The position numbers and the translations under genes are program-made. This document shows positions 462 through 23,819 of a DNA stretch of 35,375 bases, piece after piece (the first letter of the stretch is position 1; every line of letters starts with the position of its first letter). The notes beneath the pieces were generated by a model, which saw nothing but the letters and a program-made list of their open reading frames with translations, was not told the origin of the DNA and did not search any database. Location: the NCBI GenBank assembly GCA_028873925.1, contig JAPPNA010000176.1:1-35375 (forward strand). The letters are read 5' to 3'. This DNA is from Bacteroidota bacterium. Lineage in GTDB: Bacteria > Bacteroidota > Rhodothermia > Rhodothermales > Bin80.

Positions 462-1429
462 ATGCCAGAGCGTGCACAGCGTAATCGCACTTTAACCTGC
501 ACGGAAGATGAGCGAAAATGTCTCGCGGGCGGTCTTGTGCGATTGACCTCGGCCGTAACGTCGGATGATATTGCCGGGAGGCTTGTGCTCGGGGATGCGT
601 TTGAGACTGTCCGTTTTCTGCCGGCAGATTTCGCTGACCTGCTTATCCTAGCCCCCCCTACAACCTTACCCGCAATTTCGGTGGGCGCGTATTCTGCAGG
701 AAATCCCAGTCCGATTTCGCTGATTGGTTTAGGCGGCTGATCGAATTTCTGATGCCGACGCTCAAGGTTACTGCGATGGTATACGTCTGCTGGGACTGGC
801 GCACCTCCATGCTGATATTCCCCGTATTGAATGGCTGCTTGAGGATCCGCAATCGAATCACCTGGGAACGCGAGAAGGGTCGTGGTGCAAAATCCGACTG
901 GAAAAACACCACCGAAGACATCTGGTTCTGTACCGTATCGGATCAGTACAGTTTTGATGTGGACGCGGTTAAGCTCAAGCGTAGAGTAACAGCTCCGTAC
1001 CGCGTCAATGGCGTGCCCAAAGATTGGGAACAGGAGAGGGGAGGCAAGTATCGGCTGACCCATCCGTCCAGTAATCGGACCGACATCACGGTTCCGTTTT
1101 GGTCTATGCGGGAGAACACAGATCATCCGACGCAGAAGCCCGAAAAGCTTCTCGCAAAGCTCATCCTGACCAGCTCCCATCCAGGCGATTTTGTGTTTGA
1201 TCCGTTCGTGAGTAGCGGTACCACGGCGGTGGTCGCGCAGAAGCTTCAACGCTTCTGGTGCGGAGTTGACTTCAATGAAGAATACCTGTGTGGGGCACTT
1301 AAGCGGCTCCGCAGGGCGAAGCAGGAGAGGAGCAGTCAGGGGTATGCAGATGGGGTTTTTGGGAGGCGGAATCCCGCCCCAGGACCCAGCCAGCGGACTA
1401 TAATGGCCCAGAAATCGATTATTGAATGA
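462..1429 (+). pseudogene. Beta-class DNA methyltransferase (type II R-M), frameshifted at DPPY
   Basis: This gene encoded a site-specific DNA methyltransferase (N6-adenine or N4-cytosine) of a type II restriction-modification system. The 5' part (462-740) ends its normal reading with LLIL just before catalytic motif IV. The rest continues in another frame as YNLTRNFGGRVF..., then ITWEREKGRGAKSDWKN, HPTQKPEKLLAKL and the SAM-binding motif DPFVSSGTT. Motif IV preceding motif I marks the beta class. Inserting one A between G651 and C652 restores codons for LLILDPPYNL, so a one-base deletion explains both the frameshift and the missing Asp. The DPFVSSGTT motif has Ser where the usual consensus is DPFxGSGTT. 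The 3' end overlaps the endonuclease-like gene by ATGA. It is a pseudogene if the sequence is right; a sequencing error beside the seven-C run is the main alternative. Confidence 0.85.
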
Positions 1430-2133
1430 AATCGCAGTTCTATTACCACGGTGTGAGCAGGCTGATGGCCTCTCTCATCAAGGCATACCTGAATGATCGT
1501 CGGATTGAAATAGTGGGCGGCGGAATTGGAACCACTAGGACCACCAGGATGATCGGAGCTACTCTGAAGTCCTTGTTGAGGGCTGACTTGGGTGTGCTCT
1601 TGGGTCACTGGTGCAGCAGCTATTCGTCTGATGTCGTTCGGGAGGCCATGGCCGACATAGCGTTTACGGATAGCCAGGGTTTTCATTCCGTCATTGCTGT
1701 GAAGACCTATCGGGAGGGTACGCAATTCAGCCGGCGGAATTTGATATCAGTCCGCCGCTTGGCGCGACTGTACGAATCAGACACGGATGTGTTTGCCTTG
1801 ATTCTCATCAGATTCTCGTTACGGGGCAGAGACGTAAGCGTATCGGATGTGCAATTCGTACCGATTGAGTTCCTGGACTGGAGGTGTCTGGCAATAAGGT
1901 CCTCGGGCTGGGGCCAGATTCAGCTCATGGATTCAAACGACATTCGGGTCGTTCGCCGAAACTCAAGAAAAGCGTGGATGCTGCAATTGTGCGACGCGGC
2001 ATTGGCCTACTATCCGCGCGGGATAGGCAAGATTCACGATAGAATAGAGTTTATTCGAAGTGTCCGTAGCGCGTGGGAAGCTGCGGAAGATAAGTGGGCA
2101 GGCCAAATCCCGGTGGTAAGTTCAAGGGGCTGA
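1426..2133 (+). CDS. Type II restriction endonuclease-like protein (probably inactive)
   Basis: The product is 235 residues. Its start overlaps the methyltransferase stop (ATGA), the usual arrangement of an R-M pair. The middle resembles a PD-(D/E)XK nuclease core: D77-I-A-F-T-D82, then a beta strand reading SVIAVKTY, followed by LISVRRLARLYESDTD, FVPIEFLDWRCL and SGWGQIQL. From memory, related endonucleases carry an acidic residue two before the Lys (IDIKT type). Here residue 91 is Ala (GCT at 1696-1698) and Lys is residue 93. A GAT to GCT change would explain that and would probably abolish cleavage. The expected role was cleaving DNA left unmodified by the neighbouring enzyme. The call rests on gene pairing and recalled family pattern; the recognition site is unknown. 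Confidence 0.6.
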   Translation: MKSQFYYHGVSRLMASLIKAYLNDRRIEIVGGGIGTTRTTRMIGATLKSLLRADLGVLLGHWCSSYSSDVVREAMADIAFTDSQGFHSVIAVKTYREGTQFSRRNLISVRRLARLYESDTDVFALILIRFSLRGRDVSVSDVQFVPIEFLDWRCLAIRSSGWGQIQLMDSNDIRVVRRNSRKAWMLQLCDAALAYYPRGIGKIHDRIEFIRSVRSAWEAAEDKWAGQIPVVSSRG

Positions 2134-2244
2134 GGGATGATTACCGCCATTGGGCTGACTCTGATCGATGGGCCAGCCGCCGGGCCGACCTTGGGATCAA
2201 GGCCACTTGATCATATATAGGTCAGCCATGTAAGCCATTATTCC

Positions 2245-5217
2245 ATGAGTGTAGGGACCCTGCATGAGCAGAATTTCAATGTAGCCCTCGGTCGTGCGCT
2301 TCGCCGGGCCAATCCGCGATGGACATCCGAGCCGCACCGGCTGCAGGTTGAGCCGCTTGGGGTTGTCACCGATAGCTCCCGCCGCAAAATCCGGCCTGAT
2401 ATTCTGGTGTGTGACGAACAGCTCCCACCGGTTGTGCTGGAGTGCTCATACGCGCCCGCAGATGCCGAGAAGGATGCCATGGCACGCCTTGGCTGTACCT
2501 ACAATATCCTGCCAATTCAAACGGCAATGGCCGTGTTTGTCCCCGGTCAGTTCAGGCAGTTGCAGACTGACAGGTGTGTTGACGAATTGATGGAGGGTCG
2601 GCCTGTTTTCTCGTCCATCTTCCAGCTCCTCAAGAGTCGGCAGCAGCTTGCGGCTCCAGACCTGTTTGATCGCCGCTGGCCCAATACCGGTTTCCTGGAA
2701 GGCTCGGTACACGATTTGTCCTCCCTGGTCACCGGAACAGCATTGCCGAAGGAAAAAATTGAGAGTGTCGCCGCCGAAATAGCCGCGCTTGTGGATAAGG
2801 CAGCTGACTTTATGACGCAACTGACGGTAGATGATCTGCAGTCAATCGCTTCAAGTGTGCACCAGCGGTCTCCGCTGAAGGCTTTGAGGACGGTAATGGT
2901 TTTGTGGCTCAATGCGCTGCTGATTCAGCAGCGCCTGCACCAGCAGTCAGTAGAGGCTGCAACACCGGTGGGGCTCCCGGTAGATGCCCTGCCGAAGCCA
3001 TCGGAGCAGATTTCCATTTGGAAGAAGATTCACTGCCAGAATTGGCGCTCCATTTTCGGGCCTGCTACAGAGGCCCTGGAGCTTGCGGGCAGATTGCATC
3101 CGCATGCCTCTAGCAGGGCGCTCTTAGCCCTGATTCGGGCCGTGGAAGAAATTGAGATTGCCCAATTGGGCCTTCACATAAACATTGGGGCTGAGCTGTT
3201 TCCGAAGCTAAGCGACGACCGGAAGCAGGCCGCCGCATTCTACACTCAACCTTCCACGGCAGAGATCCTGGCCACGCTGACCATTCTGCCGGGCGCACTG
3301 TCTCCGGCGGAATGGGCACAGGGCGAATTGTTCAGGAATCACCGCTTGGCGGACTTAGCCTGCGGTACGGGCACACTGCTTCGTGCGGGATACCGACGCA
3401 TTGCCTCACTTCACGAAAGACACGGTGGTACGCTTGACAGCCTGCGAACGCTTCATGCGACCGCTATGGAGAAGGGGCTGGTCGGCACGGATATAAGCCC
3501 AATTGCCGCACATCTGACTGCTTCCTCGCTGGCGGCCATAGGGCAGGGAGAGCCTTACGGGGACAACAACATTGGCTGGGTCAATGTAGGCGGACACGGC
3601 AAAGGGGCGCGGGCCGGCTCCCTGGAGTATTTCGCTGCGCCCCAAGTGGTAGACCTCTTTGGAGACACCGGTGGCGTTTCTATGGGGGATGCGAGCGCGG
3701 ATAAGCAAACGGTTGCCGTGGAAGATGGCTCATGTGACTGGATCCTCATGAATCCACCCTACTCGCGTACGCGTGGAGGCCAAAGCGCCTTTGATGTGGC
3801 CGGACTCACCGAATCCGAACGCAAGGCCTGCCAGAAGCGTTGGGGCACGCTGGTGAAAGGGCAGGAGGTTAACCGCAAGGCAGGGTTGGCGGCCTCGTTT
3901 CTTGCCTTGGCAAACAAAAAGATCAAGCCGGGAGGGAGGATCGGATTTGTGCTGCCGCTAACCGCCGCATTCGCCGAAACATGGGCTATCACGCGCAAGA
4001 TGATTGAAGAGTCTTTTGATGACATCACGGCCATCACAGTGGCAGCGGGCCAGGCATTGGGCAGAGATGCTTTATCCGCAGATACAAACATGGAAGAAAT
4101 GCTTCTGGTTGCCACAAAGAGGTCAGTACCCCCCTCCCAAGAACGTTCTCACAAGGCAGCTACCATACAGTGTGTCACCCTCACCTCTCCGGTATCCCGT
4201 ATTGGTGAAGCTGAGCAGATTGCTCGTGCCATCACGGGTGCTTGTGCCAGAGCCGGTGGAAACGCCTTGCCCATACGTGTCGGCGATGACGGGGTAGGGC
4301 AGTTGTATTGTTACCGCAAGGCTTCAAACGGGAGTCCCTGGCATCCGCTGGGTGTCGTACACGGAGAGTTGGCGAGATTTGCCGCAGGCCTTGAATCAGG
4401 TCTGCTGGAATTCAGTGATCTACGCGATAAGCTCAAGATACCCATGACAATAGTTGAAGAGTTATTTGAGGTGGGTCCTACTCACCACTTGATAGGTCAC
4501 ATTGTCGGAAACGCGTCAATTGGGGCCTTTGAATTTCATCCAACGGCCGGAGGTCCAGACAACATCGGGGCCGATCGGTCCCTGTGGGCGGCGGACAGCA
4601 AGACGCAGACGAGTATGGCGACGAGCCCTACGCACAAGGGATTTGCCCCTGCGGGTGTCGGTTCGGAAACGCGGAGAGCAGCCATGAGGAAATCCCAGAG
4701 CATGTTGTTTTACGCGCGCAACATAAGATGGACATCGCAAAAAATACTGGTGGCCGCTACGCGTCAAAGAGTCGTTGGAGGCCCCACATGGACAGCACTA
4801 CTGCATGGCAGGGCGGATGTGCAAAAGGCCTTTGCACTCTGGGCCAATTCAGCGCTGGGAATGATATTGCACTGGACGCAGGGGCAGCGCACGCATGCCG
4901 GCCGGTCCCGTACTCAGATAGCGGCGCTCAAATCCATTCCGTGTCCAGATCTGACTCAACTCGGCGACGCATATCTGGCAAGGGCAGCAGCCGATTTTGA
5001 TGCGCTCTGCAGCCAGCCACTGTTGCCCGCCTGCCAGGCTCACGCAGATCCCGTGCGCCAGCAGATTGATGACGCGGTGATCAGGATGCTGTCACTGTCA
5101 GATGTCATGGCCGCAACTGTGCCGATACTGCGATGGCTCTGGTGTAATGAACCTTCCGTGCACGCCCGCAATAAAGCCGCACTCAGGAAGATCGAAGAGG
5201 CCGACCAGCTTTTCTGA
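2245..5217 (+). CDS. N6-adenine DNA methyltransferase with N-terminal nuclease-like domain (type IIG-like)
   Basis: This 990-residue protein combines a PD-(D/E)XK-like N-terminus with a gamma-class N6-adenine methyltransferase. Near the start P51-D52 is followed by VVLE66-C-S68, where an active nuclease would normally show E-x-K. Residues about 85-320 are mostly helical with no motif I recognise. The region leading into the catalytic domain reads DRKQAAAFYTQPSTAEIL. SAM motif I is DLACGTGTLL from D370, and motif IV is NPPY at 503-506 in the context DWILMNPPYSRTRGG. The C-terminal 300 or so residues are the expected target-recognition region. Single-chain enzymes of this layout are type IIG restriction-modification proteins or stand-alone methyltransferases; with Ser in place of Lys, cleavage is doubtful. 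The gene lies 111 bp behind the R-M pair and is convergent with the CoA-transferase gene, 12 bp away. Confidence 0.75.
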   Translation: MSVGTLHEQNFNVALGRALRRANPRWTSEPHRLQVEPLGVVTDSSRRKIRPDILVCDEQLPPVVLECSYAPADAEKDAMARLGCTYNILPIQTAMAVFVPGQFRQLQTDRCVDELMEGRPVFSSIFQLLKSRQQLAAPDLFDRRWPNTGFLEGSVHDLSSLVTGTALPKEKIESVAAEIAALVDKAADFMTQLTVDDLQSIASSVHQRSPLKALRTVMVLWLNALLIQQRLHQQSVEAATPVGLPVDALPKPSEQISIWKKIHCQNWRSIFGPATEALELAGRLHPHASSRALLALIRAVEEIEIAQLGLHINIGAELFPKLSDDRKQAAAFYTQPSTAEILATLTILPGALSPAEWAQGELFRNHRLADLACGTGTLLRAGYRRIASLHERHGGTLDSLRTLHATAMEKGLVGTDISPIAAHLTASSLAAIGQGEPYGDNNIGWVNVGGHGKGARAGSLEYFAAPQVVDLFGDTGGVSMGDASADKQTVAVEDGSCDWILMNPPYSRTRGGQSAFDVAGLTESERKACQKRWGTLVKGQEVNRKAGLAASFLALANKKIKPGGRIGFVLPLTAAFAETWAITRKMIEESFDDITAITVAAGQALGRDALSADTNMEEMLLVATKRSVPPSQERSHKAATIQCVTLTSPVSRIGEAEQIARAITGACARAGGNALPIRVGDDGVGQLYCYRKASNGSPWHPLGVVHGELARFAAGLESGLLEFSDLRDKLKIPMTIVEELFEVGPTHHLIGHIVGNASIGAFEFHPTAGGPDNIGADRSLWAADSKTQTSMATSPTHKGFAPAGVGSETRRAAMRKSQSMLFYARNIRWTSQKILVAATRQRVVGGPTWTALLHGRADVQKAFALWANSALGMILHWTQGQRTHAGRSRTQIAALKSIPCPDLTQLGDAYLARAAADFDALCSQPLLPACQAHADPVRQQIDDAVIRMLSLSDVMAATVPILRWLWCNEPSVHARNKAALRKIEEADQLF

Positions 5218-14092: not shown

Positions 14093-17000
14093 TCACGACA
14101 TACCCTCTATGATTGACCAAACCCGGTGATAGCTGACACCCAGGTCTCCCATAGCTCGGGTCCATTCGACCGCACTTGCCTTGCGGAGCCGAAGCCGAAC
14201 CTGGTGAAGCGGTTCATCGGGTTTGATGGCCAGATGCGCTGCAAGCCTGGTGGCGGCGGTTCTGGGCACCCCCAACAACCTGAGAGCAACAGCCTCGTCG
14301 CTGTTGACACCATAGTATACGCGAGCGGGCAAATTACGGAGGCTGCGTTGTTCCTCCGCAGCTAACGATTCCATGATACTTCCCAGCGTGAGTGTCTGCA
14401 GGGCGGAGAGTCCCCAGGATGCAGTCTGAGTCAGCTTGCCGAATACGCTTTTGCAGCATTGGGTCATGGCTTTCACAGGGTCAGCCGCTGCGTCGGCGGT
14501 CCCGAAGAATTTGCCAGCCATCTCAGGTAGAGGAATTCCCTGCACCCAATCACAGATAATCTGCGTGAGCCTGTGACCATCCGGGTGACTGCCGCCGGTA
14601 ACATCCTTGAGCTGGTTGCGAAGTTCGGGTACATCCAGCAGAATCCCCATCATTTTGCGCAGTTGTTCCCGTTGGTCCCCAAAGAGTTCGGCGGTCCAGA
14701 CATCCGCAGGCAGGTTCTCCGCACTTAACCTCCCCAGCAGTGCATTGACTGATTCCCAGGAAAAACCGGTAGCGTCAACGAAACTTAACGGCTTACCTTT
14801 GATCTTCTCGGCATAATCGTAAACACTTCGCACCAGCCCGTCTGCCCACCCCGCATGACTTCTTCGCAGCGACTGAAAGCCGAGCGTACCCCGTAGGATC
14901 TGCTCAATCCGCGCTGCAAATTCTTCGTGATTGCCAATCTGCCGGTATGTGTGAGCCAGATACTGAACAAAGGCAGACCAACCGGGATCGCGCGAAAGCT
15001 TATGAAGCTGCAGCTTCGCGCCGCCAGTTACCACTTTCTGCACCATCTCAATTAGCGTGGAGTTGAGCTCTTTGACCGCTGCCTCAATAAACTGCTCAAG
15101 CTCATGTTGCTTTGCGTCACTATTGGCTGCTAAGGCGACCACTCCGATATCTCCCTGATTCACGCGGCCCGCACGCCCTGCAATGTTCCAGAAGTCTTCC
15201 GGGGGCATGTCCCGCCAGTGTGGAGGCGTTGGGAATCGGTACTGGTTGGTCGCAAATATCACACCGGATACAGGGAAATTCAGGCCCTGAGCAATGGTGG
15301 TAGTAGCCACCAGAACGTCCAACTGGCCGGTTTCAGCCAACCATTCCACTAGTGCGCGCGTTTCATCCGACATGCCGGCGTGGTGCACGCCAACACCATA
15401 TTCAAGAAGGCCAGCCAGTGGGAAGTCCGCTCCCATTTCCTGAATCAGAAATCGCTGCACATGCTTAAGATCTTCTTTCTGAAGGGGTATCCTGTTAGCA
15501 TTGACCTCAAATTTCCTGGCGATACTCCAGGTATTCGCCGGAGAATTAGCCAGTACGATAGTAGTTCCACGTCTCTTGAGGGCATGTGCCGTAACTGCTG
15601 CGATTGCACCTGGTGAGTCCTTTACTTTTGACCAGGAAAGGCCGAGGGGACGCCGCTCCCCAATATCAATATGTTCCGGGACAGAAAGCGTCTTGCGCGT
15701 AGTGTGCCGCGTGATGAGCCGCAAGCTGAAATCCCCTCTGACGCTGCCTTTGTCTACCCGTACTATAGCCGCTACGCGGTCATTCGGGGCCCAATCAGCC
15801 CCAATTCCAATGCTCTTGCTCCTGTCCCGGGAGAGCCAGCGGGCGATCTCCAGCCCGTTACGAATAAAGGGAGTTAAGAGAAGAAACTGGGCGTGCCGAC
15901 ACTCCCGGTTAATGGTGGCCAGCAGTAGCTCCAGTTTGAGACCACGGGATTTGGAGGCCAGCCCATGGGCCTCATCAATCACAACCAGCGTAAGGGGACG
16001 GCCTATTCTGGCTTCCCAGCCTCCCCGCATGATCAAATCCAGTTTTTCCGGGGTGGTCACAAGGATCCGGAATTGTTGCTCTTGGTCGGTTTCGGACAGC
16101 ATGCCTGCTTCAAGTCCATCCACTTCCAATGCAGGACTAACTTTCTCCACAAGGACATCAACTTGCGAAAAATCTCGGCGAAGACGTGAGGTTAGCTGAT
16201 TGACCAGTGCACGCGTGGGAGCCACATAGGCCACCCATCCATTCTCGTAATCAAACTGATTGAGTGCCTGAAGAATTCTGAGCTCGGCAATTAGTGTCTT
16301 GCCGCTTGAAGTGGGCAGGTTCACAACCACAGATCGGTGGCCGGACCCAAGCAGTCCCTCTTCCTGAAGTGCACATCGCTGGGGTGGGAGCATCTCAAAA
16401 ATTGGATTTTCCCGTCCACTTGATGTTAAGGACCGCACAAATTGATTGACGCGGCTGTTTACCGCCCGTGTCACGGTCCATATGCTGTTGCTCACCATCA
16501 CATCGGCTGTCCGCGCAAGCAATCGGACCAGTGGTTCAAGCTCCACCAGCAGTCCGCGGGCCGCGGCACTGATGGCGCGATCAAACTGAGCCTCCAACTG
16601 CTCGCGAATGTCAAAATGGCCATCGGCGGAGCCTTGCCCCATATACTCGGCCAACAGTTCGGATGCCTTAGCAAGATGATAACGAGACACCAGCTCCCAA
16701 GCTGGGGTCGTATCCTTGCGGGCTTGCGCTTTCTGCAGGAATTCAGGTTCAAGTCGGCGCTGGACATTTCGGATGTAGGCAACATGTTTCTGAACATCTT
16801 CCAGGTCCCCCCAACCTTTCTGTCTGAATAGGAGCAGCCAGACGCGCAGTACGGATGACCAAACCACATTTCCCCAATTGTCCGACTCCCTGGTAAGTTT
16901 TGGGAGCGGGTATTCCATTAGTATGCGACGGAAATCAACCGCCCGATCCCCGATTACCGAGAAACAGCCCAATCGCACAAGCCACTCGGCTCGGGCGATA

Positions 17001-17263
17001 TTGTCCTCTGGCCATGTCAGAGTTCGGGCTATACCGAATATTTCAGCGGCCAGCGTGCGACGATCATCCGAACGGGTATCATCCTGCAACGCGTCAAATA
17101 ATCCCACCTGCAGTGCATTGCTGACGAGTTCCAGATTCTGAACGTCGGTTTCCTTCGGGGCCAGGTCAAGGGCCACGGTGAGTCTGCGTCGCTGTGTATC
17201 GGCGGATGCCTGACGCAGCCGATCCTCACCGATAGCCTGGTGAATCCAAGTGGAGGCTGTCAT
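14093..17263 (-). CDS. Ski2-like superfamily 2 helicase, Hachiman HamB-like
   Basis: This 1056-residue DExH helicase has Walker A in NLPTSSGKT (316-323), APTRAL near 348, VTTPEKLD near 402, the DEAH box at 430-433, motif V as ATTTIAQGLNFPV (653-665) and motif VI AGRAGR (695-700). The region between motifs II and V reads LLLTPFIRNG, where SAT or TAT is common. GLNFPV and the downstream layout place it with Ski2/Hel308-type enzymes. The first 300 residues are a long helical extension without a motif I recognise. A small PD-(D/E)XK nuclease gene precedes it by 53 bp on the same strand. A nuclease-then-helicase pair of these sizes is the Hachiman antiphage layout, in which HamB loads on DNA and controls HamA. 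The family assignment is inferred; other helicase-nuclease defence pairs remain possible. Confidence 0.8.
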   Translation of the reverse strand: MTASTWIHQAIGEDRLRQASADTQRRRLTVALDLAPKETDVQNLELVSNALQVGLFDALQDDTRSDDRRTLAAEIFGIARTLTWPEDNIARAEWLVRLGCFSVIGDRAVDFRRILMEYPLPKLTRESDNWGNVVWSSVLRVWLLLFRQKGWGDLEDVQKHVAYIRNVQRRLEPEFLQKAQARKDTTPAWELVSRYHLAKASELLAEYMGQGSADGHFDIREQLEAQFDRAISAAARGLLVELEPLVRLLARTADVMVSNSIWTVTRAVNSRVNQFVRSLTSSGRENPIFEMLPPQRCALQEEGLLGSGHRSVVVNLPTSSGKTLIAELRILQALNQFDYENGWVAYVAPTRALVNQLTSRLRRDFSQVDVLVEKVSPALEVDGLEAGMLSETDQEQQFRILVTTPEKLDLIMRGGWEARIGRPLTLVVIDEAHGLASKSRGLKLELLLATINRECRHAQFLLLTPFIRNGLEIARWLSRDRSKSIGIGADWAPNDRVAAIVRVDKGSVRGDFSLRLITRHTTRKTLSVPEHIDIGERRPLGLSWSKVKDSPGAIAAVTAHALKRRGTTIVLANSPANTWSIARKFEVNANRIPLQKEDLKHVQRFLIQEMGADFPLAGLLEYGVGVHHAGMSDETRALVEWLAETGQLDVLVATTTIAQGLNFPVSGVIFATNQYRFPTPPHWRDMPPEDFWNIAGRAGRVNQGDIGVVALAANSDAKQHELEQFIEAAVKELNSTLIEMVQKVVTGGAKLQLHKLSRDPGWSAFVQYLAHTYRQIGNHEEFAARIEQILRGTLGFQSLRRSHAGWADGLVRSVYDYAEKIKGKPLSFVDATGFSWESVNALLGRLSAENLPADVWTAELFGDQREQLRKMMGILLDVPELRNQLKDVTGGSHPDGHRLTQIICDWVQGIPLPEMAGKFFGTADAAADPVKAMTQCCKSVFGKLTQTASWGLSALQTLTLGSIMESLAAEEQRSLRNLPARVYYGVNSDEAVALRLLGVPRTAATRLAAHLAIKPDEPLHQVRLRLRKASAVEWTRAMGDLGVSYHRVWSIIEGMS

Positions 17264-17316
17264 GCTGCGCGTGTTGAAATCAATTTGGGCCAGTCTTGAA
17301 TCGGTACCGGGAGGTA

Positions 17317-18057
17317 CTATGCGACAATCTCCAGGCGTGCTGGCGCATCTACCTTATCGGCGAGAGATTTCGCTTGTGCAGCCACATCCCGCTCAGTGGG
17401 TTCCGTATCCCGCATGAGCATTCCGACCAGAAGGATGTCGTTGCCACCGGACTGAATAAACCGCTTGGCTGCCGCACGAAAAAGGCTCTCGCGTTCAGCG
17501 GTGCGGCATCTTGCCCTAATCCAGTAGAGAAGAGTCCACTTAGTGTCCGTGTTAACTGCTAATTTCGCCAACTGCCGTTCCATCCCTTTCGCACCGAGCA
17601 TTACTTGAGGGGGTGCTCTTCTTTGGGACGAAGTCTTGACCTCTCCAAATACAAAGCACACATCCTCACCCTCCTGGCAGAATCCTACCAGATCCGCGCC
17701 GGGCAGGCTGGCGTTCGGCACTTGAAGGTCGCGCCTGCGATTCCAGGGCCAGATGATCTGACGCGACGGATCATCTGCCATGATACATTCTGCCAGTGCC
17801 TCGCCAATAGCCCAAGACCGCTCTGCTCGGTCTGCCTCCATGAAATTGGCCACAAAGGCTGTTTCCATTCCCGTTGTTGCCATGCTGGACAACTCCACCG
17901 ATAACGGGCCCTTCTCCTCGTCATCTCGGACACGGATTCTGACGTGCCGTTTCATGTAGGACCGGAAAAGCTCTGCCTCCCTGACAAGGAATCCTTGCCA
18001 CTTGATCGATCCCAGCGAGCCCGAGTAATAAGACTCGGCAAAAAGCTCTGCGATCAT
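17317..18057 (-). CDS. PD-(D/E)XK nuclease partner of the helicase, HamA-like
   Basis: The product is 246 residues. The nuclease core is visible: D122 in LPGADLVGF, then a strand ending FGE139-V-K141-TSS, which supplies the D...ExK metal site. An upstream GEAL motif (G85-E86 in ERSWAIGEALAE) lies where the first helix of this fold often carries an acidic residue. HamA (DUF1837) nucleases of Hachiman show a similar GE, GxDG and GExK spacing, but this protein has EVKTS rather than the EAKFY type I recall, so it may be a divergent branch. It is the first gene of the unit; the helicase follows after 53 bp. The upstream 330 bp contain no gene. The likely role is DNA degradation once the helicase senses invading or damaged DNA. 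Confidence 0.65.
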   Translation of the reverse strand: MIAELFAESYYSGSLGSIKWQGFLVREAELFRSYMKRHVRIRVRDDEEKGPLSVELSSMATTGMETAFVANFMEADRAERSWAIGEALAECIMADDPSRQIIWPWNRRRDLQVPNASLPGADLVGFCQEGEDVCFVFGEVKTSSQRRAPPQVMLGAKGMERQLAKLAVNTDTKWTLLYWIRARCRTAERESLFRAAAKRFIQSGGNDILLVGMLMRDTEPTERDVAAQAKSLADKVDAPARLEIVA

Positions 18058-18817: not shown

Positions 18818-19036
18818 TTACGCGGCACCCTGATGGCCCTTCGTCTCAACGTCAAACCCACGGTCATGTATCGCGCGGGCGGCCTGCCCCAAGCGCGCAG
18901 GCGAACAGTTGATTCGGGCATGGCCAAGAGCAACCTCCGCGACCATTACGTCAGGGACCGATTGCAGGGCAGTCATGACTGCCTTGATGCAGTGGCCGCA
19001 GGACATGCCCTCAATCTTGAGCGTGTAGGATTTCAT
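18818..19036 (-). CDS. Heavy-metal-associated (HMA) domain protein, CopZ-like
   Basis: This 72-residue cytosolic protein is a single HMA domain. It begins MKSYTLKIEGMSCGHCIKAV, with the metal-binding motif GMSCGHC, and continues in the usual beta-alpha-beta-beta-alpha-beta order. Such proteins carry copper(I) or other soft metals to P-type ATPases or regulators. I chose the ATG at 19036 because upstream residues in the open frame have no family similarity. That ATG shares its A with the TGA of the preceding transporter gene (TGATG), so translation is likely coupled. No metal ATPase is present nearby, so the partner is unknown. Confidence 0.85.
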   Translation of the reverse strand: MKSYTLKIEGMSCGHCIKAVMTALQSVPDVMVAEVALGHARINCSPARLGQAARAIHDRGFDVETKGHQGAA

Positions 19037-20154
19037 CAGAATGCAGCAGATAGTTCTCCCAACAGGTAGCCCGCAGCCGCACCTCCGGCCACAAGCCATC
19101 CGGCATGCAATCGGAATCGCCAGGTGGCCAGCGCCGCCAGCCCAAAAACAATCCACGGGCTCCAGCCCGTCAGCACTGCTAGGCCCAAACGCACCGTGAC
19201 CACCAGCATCAGTGCCACCGCACTTACATTGATGGCATCCAGGAATGCCGCCGTTATCTTTGATTTACGCAGGCGAGGGATCAGGGGATTCAAAATGCTG
19301 ACAAAAATGAACGAGGGCAGAAAGATCGCTACCGTAGCCACCAGTCCCCCCTGCCATCCTCCCAGCATTACGCCTATAAAGGTGGCGGTCGTTAGTACGG
19401 GCCCCGGCGTAAACTGCCCAATGGCCACCGCATCCAGTAGCTGTTGCTCAGACAGCCACCCGTACGTCTGCACTAGATCGCCATCCAGGAACGCGATCAG
19501 AACATAGCCGCTCCCGTAGAGCACCGAGCCGACCTTCAGGAAAAACAGCCCAAGCTTCAAGAGCGAATACTCCACCTGCCCGGATTGCAGCACCCCCATC
19601 ACGATCAGCGGCAACGCCATAATGACCGTGCGCCTGCGCCAGGCATACAGGCCCGCCAGTCCCAGCAGACCGCCCCCGATGAGTGCCAGCACCTCGTTGA
19701 CCCCCAACAGCAGTGCTGCCGCTACAGCGGCACCGATCGGGACCAGACTGACCTGCCTGACCGCCGTCTTGCCCAAGCGCCACAACGCTCCCAGAATGAT
19801 GACAATTACGGCCGGCTTTATGCCCGCCAGAAACGGTTCCAGCGCCGGGACCTGCCCGTAGGCCATGTACAGCCATCCAAGCACTCCGGTCATGAGTGCG
19901 GCCGGCAGGATAAAGCACCAACCCGCAACCAGCAGGCCCCCGTAGCCCTTGCGTTCATAGCCGATATGCAGGGCCATTTCCGTGGAGTTGGGCCCGGGAA
20001 TCAGATTGGTTGCGCCCACCAGATCCAGGAAATGCTCGCGGCTGAGCCACCTGCGTCGCACCACCACTTCATCCTCCATCATGGCAATGGCGGCCGCCGG
20101 TCCGCCGAAGCCGATAAAACCCAGCTTCAGAAACAATCGTATCAGGTCACCCAT
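19036..20154 (-). CDS. chrA: Chromate transporter family protein (ChrA, two CHR domains)
   Basis: This 372-residue inner-membrane protein of the CHR family has the two homologous halves typical of long ChrA proteins. The first half has FIGFGGPAAAIAMMEDEVV, RRRWLSREHFLDLVG and LIPGPNSTEMALHIGY. The second repeats the pattern with GSGYVLIAFLDGDLV, YGWLSEQQLLDAVAIG and FTPGPVLTTATFIG. About ten hydrophobic segments are visible. ChrA proteins export chromate by proton-linked antiport, although many family members have no proven substrate. It is coupled to the HMA gene downstream. Its start lies only 16 nt from that of the divergent DCC gene, so either the promoter overlaps coding sequence or the true start lies slightly inside. 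Confidence 0.9.
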   Translation of the reverse strand: MGDLIRLFLKLGFIGFGGPAAAIAMMEDEVVVRRRWLSREHFLDLVGATNLIPGPNSTEMALHIGYERKGYGGLLVAGWCFILPAALMTGVLGWLYMAYGQVPALEPFLAGIKPAVIVIILGALWRLGKTAVRQVSLVPIGAAVAAALLLGVNEVLALIGGGLLGLAGLYAWRRRTVIMALPLIVMGVLQSGQVEYSLLKLGLFFLKVGSVLYGSGYVLIAFLDGDLVQTYGWLSEQQLLDAVAIGQFTPGPVLTTATFIGVMLGGWQGGLVATVAIFLPSFIFVSILNPLIPRLRKSKITAAFLDAINVSAVALMLVVTVRLGLAVLTGWSPWIVFGLAALATWRFRLHAGWLVAGGAAAGYLLGELSAAF

Positions 20155-20170
20155 CGGACAGCGGAATCAT

Positions 20171-20494
20171 ATGCGGCAGAATATTACACTTTGCTATGAT
20201 CATCAATGTCAATTCTGCCGGAGTTCAATGGACTGGCTGGCCCGCCGCGACAAGCACAGCCGCCTCTCCCTAGAGCCTCTGGATGGTGTGTCGGACAGCG
20301 TGATCCTTAAGGATCCGGACGGAACCTGGACTGAGTCAACCGCCATACTGCGATCTGTTGAGCATCTCGGTGGAATCTGGCGGATGGCCCGCCTGCTGAG
20401 ACTGATTCCCGCGCCGGTCCGTAATGCAGCGTATCGGTTTGTGGCCCGCCGCCGCACTACTGCTGTTCAAGCAGCTCAAAATACCGGCGGATAA
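20171..20494 (+). CDS. DCC-family thiol-disulfide oxidoreductase-like protein
   Basis: This 107-residue protein opens MRQNITLCYDHQCQFCRSSM. D10-x-x-C13-x-x-C16 is the signature of the DCC (DUF393) family, which has a thioredoxin-like fold and putative thiol redox function. WTESTAILRSVEHLGG and the RLIPAPVRNAAYRFVARRR tail also fit the family. ATG 20171 was chosen over an in-frame start at 19982, which would run antisense through the transporter gene. The last 38 bp overlap the 3' end of the convergent DUF4175 gene. Confidence 0.85.
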   Translation: MRQNITLCYDHQCQFCRSSMDWLARRDKHSRLSLEPLDGVSDSVILKDPDGTWTESTAILRSVEHLGGIWRMARLLRLIPAPVRNAAYRFVARRRTTAVQAAQNTGG

Positions 20495-23400
20495 GGGCTT
20501 GGTATTCACGGGCGTATCCGCTTTCCAGCGCCTTGAGCAACGCGCGCTGAAGCGCTTCCTCTGAAGGCACAAGGTTCAATAGATCCGGCCCGGCCCGGCC
20601 CGTTTCTTCAGCCTGCTCTCCTTCCCGTCTGCGCTGCTGACCTCGCTCGGTCATGCTGCGGGACGCGTTCAGCAGACGCGTCAGAATCTGCTGCTGGCGT
20701 TCCCTGACCTCCGGGTGTCGGGTCTGCGGCAGGGTCAGCTCACGTATTGACTCTTCCATTTGTGCGGCAATTTGATCCAGATCGCCCGCCAGTCGTCGGG
20801 CCAGGTCCCGTTCACGACTCAACTGTTCCAATTGCCGGCGCATCTGCTCCTGCTGACCGGCCAGCTGTTGCAGCCTTTCCTGCATGTCCACACTGAGTCG
20901 TTCGCCCTCCATTTGACCCAGGAGATCATCCAGCGCTCGGTTCAGGTCACGCTGCTGGGCCGCCATCTGCTGCAGCTGCTCAATCATCTGTTCCATGGAC
21001 ATGCCGCCACCGCTGGACGACGCAGCAGAACTCTGCATCTGGGCCATGAGGTCACTCAGCAGCAAAGCGAGCTCATTCAAGTGCGTCATGGCATTCCGTC
21101 CGGTATCCTCCGCCTGGCGACTGTCGCGTTCCACGAGTGCGTCCGTGGCCGCATCCATGCTCAGCAGTGCGGAACCGGCGTACTGGAGGGCATCCCGGGT
21201 CAGCTGAGGCAGTGTGCGCCCGAGCGACTGCAGCGAATCAATGACCAACCGCGCGCCGTCGCCCAGTTGGGCCTGCTGACGCGCGTACTCGCGCAGCCGG
21301 GTGCTGTTCGGGGTGGTCCTGACGACACGCTGTCTGAGTGCCTCCTGGTCATGCGACAGCAGAAGCACATTGCTCAAGACCTGGCTGAGGCCAGTCAGAT
21401 TCATGCCCATCTGCTGACTCTGCATATTCTGCTGCATCTGTTGCAGCTGTCCCTGTAACTGCTGCATGGACCGGCTCATCTGCTGCTGCCCCTGATTGGC
21501 CTGCTGCATTTGGTTCTGGAGCATCTGCCGGGCATTCTCCATCATCGCCTCGGGAAGCTGACGCGCGCGCGTTTCCTCGTTCAACCGATCCATTTCCTCC
21601 TGCGGCGCGGTACGCATTTCGTCCATCCGTTCGGATATATCCGCCATCTGCTCTTCCAGCGCCTCCATGTCCTCACTGGCCTGACGCTGCCGGCGGCCCA
21701 GTGGCTCAGCCTGAACGGAATCCGGGTCCTGGGCGGTCTGCTCAGCGAGATTTTCCTGAATCTCTTTCAGATCCTCGGCCCGGGAGGCCGCCTCATCCAG
21801 CTTCTGCTGCACTTGGAAGTTGCGAAACAGCTCCAATGTGCGCTCAAGGCGTTCCTGGAACTGCTCCTCGCTGAAGGCGAAGTCTTCCAGGGAAGACTGC
21901 AGCTTTTGCGGGTCAAGCTCTTCAAGGGCCTCCTGCAGCTGCCGGAGCGCCTCCATCAGGGCGGGATCATTGATCTCATCGGTGACCTCACGCAGCTCTT
22001 CAAACATCGACAGCAGTTCATCGCTTATCAGGCCATGATCTTCCATCTGCTCGGCCGCCTGATCCATAGCCTCCGAGAGCGCCTCTACCTGTGACTGCAT
22101 GGACTGCTGCGCCTCGGTCAGATCTTCCAACTGACGCTGATCATCCCAGTCCGCATCCTGCTTCCTGCGCAATTCCTCGCTGAGCTCGTCAAATTGCTCA
22201 CGCAGACCTGCGGCGTACTCAAGAAGAGATTCCAGGTCCGCTTCCGTATTATCCTGCAGCTCCCCCAACTGATCGTAGTGCTCGGTCAGAGAGGGTAGCC
22301 GGATCCGGTGGATGGCACTGCTGGCGGCCTTCGGGCCGCTCAGGTTATCATTATCCCAGACGCGCAAATAATACGCTACCTCATCGCCGGGAATCACATC
22401 GAGTCCGGTGGTAGCATTGATCGGCCAGGTATATACGAGAGCACGATCCAGCGGTACGGCCAGATCAAAGCTCTCAAATTCGTCCATAGTCTCATCGAAG
22501 CGGCTTTCGGCAAGGCGCCAGAACAAGGCTACGCGCGTAAAGCCGTAGTCGTCATCAAGCCGGGCGGCTAAGGGAACGTTTAACGAGACATCCAGAATCG
22601 CCTCCGGCTCTGGAGCGATAATACGGACGGACGGATACCGGTCCGGTACCGGCGTAACAGAATACCGGACAGGATCACTGCTGGCAATGCCCTCCGGGCT
22701 CACCAGGTCAATACGGTAGTGATCTTTTTGCTGTACCACGAAAGTGCCCTTCAATTCCGGCATAGGCACATCCGGCCGGTCACTCTCAAAGGTCAGGCGG
22801 GCCGCTACGGGGGTTATGCTGCTGCGTACCGAGATTTCAGCCCGCGTGCCGACCAAGGCCGTGATATTGCCGGTTCCCGGTGTCAGGGATTGTCGGGGCA
22901 GCCCGGTGTAGGCCGGCGGGATCAGATCCACCGAGAGGTTACGCAGAACAGGCCGATCCAGCACCGTGACCTCGTACCAGGGCGAAACCAGCGGGGAGGC
23001 CACTACCCGATACCGGAAATCCTGCCGCACATTGGATTGCTGATGAACAAACCGCTGCTTCCCCTCCGGTCGCAGCACGACGCTGCGTGCGCGCCGCTGA
23101 CCGCTCGGGTGGATCTCAAGCGCGATTGCTTCCGGAACCGGCTGGCCGGACAGACGCGCGGAGATGGTGAGCGATTCGCCACGGGTGACGCGGACTGACC
23201 CGGGCTCCACCTCTACGGTGAACGAAACAGGCCGCTGAAAAGACACGCCGGGTGAGAATAGCCGGTGGCTGGCCCCCAGGAAGGCCTGCGGGGCTGCGAG
23301 CAGGAATACCAGCAACCCGGCTGCGGGCACGACCGCCAGTCGTGCAATCTGCAAGGACCGCCTGAAGTTGACCGCTCGCTCAAGCGGCAGCCTGACCACA

Positions 23401-23819
23401 TCATCATGCAGCCGCTGTACGGCCTGCATTACGATCCCGGGCGGTGCGGCACTGGCATCACCGCGTCCCAATTCCAGGAGATTTACCAGTTGGTCATCGG
23501 CTTCGGGGACCTCATTCGCGATACAGCGTGCGATGTGCCTGAATCGGGATCTTCTTCGCCACCCGACCATGACCGGTGGCAGAATCAGCACACCCACGAG
23601 TCCGGCCGCCGCCGCTAGCCACAATACGAACAGGGCGGTTCTCCACGGGGAATGGACCCAGAAAACCGCTTCGGCGGCCAGCAGGCACAGCAGCACTGCG
23701 GACAGCACGCCCATAGCAACAATCGCATCCTGCACAAATCGGGCCCACACCCACCGCCCCCAAATGGTGCGCAGGCGTCGTTTTACGGGCGCGATCAGGC
23801 TTTGAAGGTCCGGCTCCAT
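20457..23819 (-). CDS. DUF4175 family membrane protein with long Gln-rich coiled coil
   Basis: The protein is 1120 residues. The N-terminus has two closely spaced membrane segments (about 30-55 and 60-88) and a third near 155-175, with an RRRSRFRHIARCI linker. Residues about 190-500 form beta-rich domains with PVSFTVEVEPGSVRVTRGE and RVWDNDNLSGPKA. From about 520 to the end it is helical, very rich in Gln, Glu, Met and Arg, and predicted coiled coil (runs of QQM and QLQ). This architecture is the DUF4175 family, found mostly in Bacteroidota and relatives, whose function is not established. The combination suggests an envelope-anchored scaffold reaching into the periplasm. The gene stands alone between convergent and divergent neighbours. 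Confidence 0.85.
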   Translation of the reverse strand: MEPDLQSLIAPVKRRLRTIWGRWVWARFVQDAIVAMGVLSAVLLCLLAAEAVFWVHSPWRTALFVLWLAAAAGLVGVLILPPVMVGWRRRSRFRHIARCIANEVPEADDQLVNLLELGRGDASAAPPGIVMQAVQRLHDDVVRLPLERAVNFRRSLQIARLAVVPAAGLLVFLLAAPQAFLGASHRLFSPGVSFQRPVSFTVEVEPGSVRVTRGESLTISARLSGQPVPEAIALEIHPSGQRRARSVVLRPEGKQRFVHQQSNVRQDFRYRVVASPLVSPWYEVTVLDRPVLRNLSVDLIPPAYTGLPRQSLTPGTGNITALVGTRAEISVRSSITPVAARLTFESDRPDVPMPELKGTFVVQQKDHYRIDLVSPEGIASSDPVRYSVTPVPDRYPSVRIIAPEPEAILDVSLNVPLAARLDDDYGFTRVALFWRLAESRFDETMDEFESFDLAVPLDRALVYTWPINATTGLDVIPGDEVAYYLRVWDNDNLSGPKAASSAIHRIRLPSLTEHYDQLGELQDNTEADLESLLEYAAGLREQFDELSEELRRKQDADWDDQRQLEDLTEAQQSMQSQVEALSEAMDQAAEQMEDHGLISDELLSMFEELREVTDEINDPALMEALRQLQEALEELDPQKLQSSLEDFAFSEEQFQERLERTLELFRNFQVQQKLDEAASRAEDLKEIQENLAEQTAQDPDSVQAEPLGRRQRQASEDMEALEEQMADISERMDEMRTAPQEEMDRLNEETRARQLPEAMMENARQMLQNQMQQANQGQQQMSRSMQQLQGQLQQMQQNMQSQQMGMNLTGLSQVLSNVLLLSHDQEALRQRVVRTTPNSTRLREYARQQAQLGDGARLVIDSLQSLGRTLPQLTRDALQYAGSALLSMDAATDALVERDSRQAEDTGRNAMTHLNELALLLSDLMAQMQSSAASSSGGGMSMEQMIEQLQQMAAQQRDLNRALDDLLGQMEGERLSVDMQERLQQLAGQQEQMRRQLEQLSRERDLARRLAGDLDQIAAQMEESIRELTLPQTRHPEVRERQQQILTRLLNASRSMTERGQQRRREGEQAEETGRAGPDLLNLVPSEEALQRALLKALESGYAREYQALIRRYFELLEQQ

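Follow-up and report, generated by a model that had tools for sequence, protein, structure and literature searches.

Among the closest known relatives of the locus reported here is Hachiman, in which a nuclease gene (HamA) is followed by a helicase gene (HamB), and for which structures from E. coli ECOR31 are available (8VX9, 8VXA and 8VXY). In the HamAB complex, HamA is bound by the N-terminal domain of HamB, and the HamA authors name the type IIS enzymes, which include PaqCI of Paucibacter aquatile, as the closest enzyme type (PMC12278908). AbpAB, a proposed Hachiman variant, likewise combines a Ski2-type helicase with a partner that carries a HamA-like domain; in AbpA, this domain is inactive and accompanied by an extra N-terminal nuclease (PMC12278908). 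A further point of reference is PDC-M23, a candidate system of PADLOC-DB v2.0.0 that comprises a nuclease (M23A) and a helicase (M23B). Systems with the PDC label are candidates, most of them not validated (PMC12988326), and the open-access papers searched yielded neither a paper that mentions PDC-M23 or M23B nor activity, complex or phage data for any M23 pair.

The M23 gene pair in the window

The gene pair lies on the minus strand of the window, the 35,375-nucleotide stretch of DNA that was analysed. The nuclease gene (17317–18057; 246 aa, ATG start) comes first, and the helicase gene (14093–17263; 1056 aa, ATG start) follows 53 bp downstream on the same strand. The original prediction had described both open reading frames with these sizes, coordinates and spacing, leaving out the strand, and the nuclease motifs it quoted, GADLVGF and FGEVKTSS, are both present in the translation. 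The nuclease matches the PADLOC M23A model PDLC04527 (E 4.6e-80, 266.6 bits), and the helicase matches the M23B model PDLC04531 from residue 4 to 1054 (E 0, 1327.6 bits). Given that curated profiles are matched by both proteins at these values, a chance match is excluded. Adjacency, strand and gene order also agree with PDC-M23; the pair is thus already catalogued in PADLOC, although no description of its nature was found in the open-access papers searched. The original prediction was made without knowledge of this PADLOC entry or of the early end of the nuclease.

The window copy departs from other PDC-M23 members at the junction of the two genes. Its nuclease stops at profile position 244 of 263, without the conserved C-terminal tail, and its 53-bp gap (17264–17316) takes the place of the usual 4-bp overlap. 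Among the 71 loci with enough downstream sequence to be counted, the helicase directly follows the nuclease in 67, with an overlap of exactly 4 bp in 49, so that the spacing, although correctly predicted, is peculiar to the window. Nuclease and helicase distances correlate across 47 loci (r 0.95), as adjacency alone would also produce. The pair is real and conserved, and it is probably defensive.

Base composition dips mildly around the pair (GC 0.546–0.56 vs. about 0.58–0.60), and no obvious flanking repeats were found there. The neighbouring genes in the window are mostly metabolic, with no obvious defence island among them. They include, on the minus strand, a chromate transporter (19036–20154), an overlapping open reading frame with a heavy-metal-associated domain (18818–19156) and a DUF4175 protein of 1120 aa (20457–23819). 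About 9 kb from the pair, the plus strand carries a possible restriction-modification locus (752–5217), with a methyltransferase-like open reading frame (752–1429) that matches type II methyltransferase models (E 2e-40), most of them in their C-terminal part only, and a 990-aa open reading frame (2245–5217) with weak N6-methylase/mad2 signals.

Relation to HamA and HamB

Sequence comparison alone ties the nuclease only weakly to HamA. No match was obtained in Pfam (E up to 1) or NCBIfam, PF08878 (formerly DUF1837) included, nor with the PADLOC HamA models, and membership of the HamA sequence family, for which the original prediction had proposed a DUF1837 search, was therefore not borne out. 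The nuclease of one relative (G188) comes near the PF08878 cut-off (21.3 bits against 25), and profile-profile comparison of the nuclease with HamA gave a weak match (E 3.5e-4, probability 37%).

The predicted structure supports a HamA fold. The AlphaFold model of the nuclease, based on 83 homologues, is confident without the C-terminal tail (pLDDT 91.6). HamA was its sole Foldseek match below 1e-3 (8vxy_A, E 2e-6), and VIA aligned it with HamA chain 8vx9_A over 220 residues (Z 15.1, rmsd 4.3). Three Hachiman chains were matched with Z scores of 15.1, 13.7 and 11.2, while the next fold, PaqCI, reached 6.8; the predicted structure thus has the HamA fold. The third of these chains, 8zue_A (531 residues, E. 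coli, Z 11.2), is taken to be of the AbpA type, judged by its length. M23A itself differs from AbpA in being a single nuclease domain with intact catalytic residues.

The active-site residues of this PD-(D/E)XK nuclease are E86, D122, E139 and K141. D122, E139 and K141, which form the Hachiman D-E-x-K set, do not vary in any of the 83 aligned homologues, nor do G120, G138 and other positions, and E86 is kept in 82. M23A has counterparts to the HamA invariants E, G-x-D, GE-x-K and a C-terminal P, but it also has invariants of its own (S143, P149, P150, Q162 and R216), and identity between M23 and Hachiman proteins in structural alignments is 15–17%. A homologue from the same phylum (G255) bridges the two nuclease families, matching both the M23A (4e-9) and the HamA1 (1e-5) models, and it adjoins an M23B helicase (1.6e-189). 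These results suggest that PF08878 covers only part of the HamA nuclease family.

The helicase is of the Ski2 family within SF2, with intact motifs I, II, V and VI (PTSSGKT, DEAH, TTTIAQG and NIAGRAGR). It is divided into an N-terminal helical domain (about residues 1–290), RecA1 and RecA2 (about 290–745) and a helical C-terminal region (746–1056). Its AlphaFold model, based on 48 homologues (pLDDT 88.2), was aligned by VIA from residue 2 to 1056 with residues 6–1089 of HamB 8vxa_A (Z 26.6, 939 residues), and among the top PDB matches only HamB covered this whole length. The alignments with Hel308, Pol theta and almost every Brr2 entry begin only around residue 250. Foldseek agrees, with TMq values of 0.71–0.74 for HamB and 0.43–0.48 for Hel308. 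The protein therefore has a HamB-type N-terminal helical domain, as a predicted fold match, which is the domain used for docking in HamAB. The Ski2-like helicases Hel308, Brr2 and Slh1 share the helicase core (about residues 250–1000), but their matches miss the N-terminal domain of about 250 residues, and no nuclease gene accompanies them as a partner. For the core alone, the VIA Z scores of Hel308 and Brr2 are tied with that of HamB, and a sequence search of the PDB ranked SLH1/Brr2 (1e-46) above HamB (3e-19). In PADLOC, PDC-M23B outscores all HamB models, the best HamB1 match reaching 188.8 bits.

A tree built from helicase cores groups M23B with all HamB proteins, against Hel308 (support 99/97). 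M23B may lie inside or beside HamB: the tree places it next to the short HamB proteins with the long HamB proteins outside (98/92), but the branches are long and the AU test gives p 0.045 against a single HamB clade. Overall, the window pair is taken to be a separate branch within the Hachiman group, with what looks like a helicase branch of its own, and by analogy it probably works like Hachiman. The original prediction, which described a divergent Hachiman-like pair and allowed for a distinct branch, is upheld by the HamA and HamB fold matches, the bridging homologue, the helicase tree and the defence neighbourhoods of relatives described below. It had named two outcomes that would speak against it, namely the lack of any structural match to the HamAB proteins and homologues outside defence islands, and neither was observed.

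Proposed mode of action and the early stop in the nuclease

The most economical reading is that the pair would act as HamAB does, and a two-gene anti-phage operon of the PDC-M23 type is the likely nature of the locus. The analysis itself establishes the parts, namely the gene pair, the predicted folds, the active-site residues, the intact helicase motifs, the shared docking domain and the defence neighbourhoods of relatives, whereas the formation of a complex, the sensing of DNA ends, activation and cell death are carried over from HamAB (PMC12278908). M23B would carry M23A, docked on the N-terminal helical domain of the helicase, while patrolling DNA until it engages a DNA end, free or single-stranded, that infection has produced. 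Movement powered by ATP would then release or activate M23A, which would degrade phage and host DNA and so abort the infection. Through this link to a solved complex, a widespread catalogue entry gains a concrete mechanism that can be tested.

The window copy may no longer be able to act in this way, given that an in-frame TAG (17317–17319) cuts its nuclease about 18 codons short. Past this TAG, the nuclease frame still encodes YLPVPIQDWPKLISTRAA, a counterpart of the C-terminal tail of the aligned relatives, and is then closed by a TGA that overlaps the helicase ATG. Given that the frame continues to encode the tail of the relatives and that its stop overlaps the helicase start, the 53-bp gap is a remnant of the end of the nuclease gene. 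All 82 aligned relatives have 14–30 C-terminal residues beyond the end of the window nuclease, with a Pro within the first four in 76, and a C-terminal Pro is invariant in HamA too. As read from the sequence, the TAG removes a conserved C-terminal motif. The missing tail follows the last core strand, which makes a loss of nuclease function plausible.

It is accordingly a serious possibility, though somewhat short of an even chance, that the family is Hachiman-like while the window copy is decaying, its helicase intact but its nuclease inactive or unstable. The tail present in all aligned relatives and the still recognisable frame fit this account, and other broken M23 copies occur in the same family, with a helicase in pieces in G388 and in-frame stops in G402 and G400. 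However, the window nuclease keeps its catalytic residues and its entire predicted core, the helicase frame is open over its full length, and in a draft of 185 contigs the stop may stem from faulty sequencing or assembly; the copy may be either impaired or mis-assembled. An order-level HMM search returned no close same-genus orthologue against which the stop could be checked. The nearest relative, from the same family, has a helicase about 70% identical. In the same-family genome G403, the helicase and nuclease match are the same as in L016, a Rhodothermales MAG, so that its relatives place the window genome near Rhodothermales. Intact M23 copies exist in relatives, with the Thiorhodococcus and Moorella loci as examples. 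The fragmented G388 helicase (L199, G388:C128) is about 45% identical to that of the window, and its near relative in G401 (L197) is intact, which points to turnover of M23 within the family.

Distribution, neighbourhoods and competing readings

In one scan, 80 loci were found in genomes that span over 20 phyla, three of the loci being archaeal, and a separate scan found five M23A loci on IMG/VR viral contigs. No nuclease relatives were found in phage records, and a plasmid search returned a single distant helicase only. M23 relatives are found in the company of defence genes, frequently those of type I restriction. Neighbours of 33 loci (132 genes) matched 255 PADLOC families at E up to 1e-20, a figure that reflects redundant models rather than a gene count, whereas 126 control genes from 20 arbitrary regions matched three; the control regions come from the phylum of the window genome and give a rough base rate. 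Type I restriction genes lead among these matches, with seven HSDR_N proteins and five carriers of Methylase_S specificity domains among the 132 neighbours.

These neighbours raise the question of whether M23 serves type I restriction-modification as an accessory, in which M23B would recognise ends or stalled complexes left by HsdR and M23A would finish the DNA, rather than a stand-alone sensor of genome integrity. The pair in G188 adjoins HsdM/HsdS-like and HsdR-like genes, and a second M23B helicase in the window genome, cut by a contig end (L121, G000:C96:20000–27218), directly adjoins hsdM, hsdS and hsdR. However, most loci examined, that of the window included, have no adjacent type I genes, and defence genes cluster anyway, so that this account is unlikely. 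A related proposal, that PDC-M23 is a Hachiman offshoot specialised for type I restriction, is quite doubtful; here the helicase would detect restriction-made DNA ends and license the HamA-fold nuclease for the final kill, in a two-stage relay.

A housekeeping DNA-repair pair, built of a Hel308/Brr2-like helicase and a nuclease, would suit the Ski2/Hel308-like helicase, its closer PDB sequence matches to SLH1/Brr2 and the mostly metabolic genes around the window pair. It is nevertheless very unlikely, given how patchily the genes occur (of 296 genomes in the phylum, 7 have M23A, as does no control genome; of 114 in the order, 11 have M23B), the defence neighbourhoods of relatives and an N-terminal domain held in common with HamB only. 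Convergence of an unrelated pair on the Hachiman layout, which the original prediction had offered as its alternative, could draw on the missing DUF1837 match and the motif context (KTSS rather than KFY), but the whole-chain HamA fold match, the bridging G255 sequence and the whole-length HamB match make it extremely improbable.

As a HamAB-like operon, the M23 pair would be one of several defence loci in the genome of the window, even if this copy may be impaired. At another locus (L120, G000:C119, 629–4932), the same genome encodes both a HamA1 nuclease and a helicase of the HamB1 type. One HamB1 model is matched there in two overlapping frames (1–641 and 639–1160), so that this helicase is either frame-broken or mis-sequenced. 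A Shango SngC-like helicase is present at a further locus (L154, G000:C152:4861–7029; E 1.6e-267).
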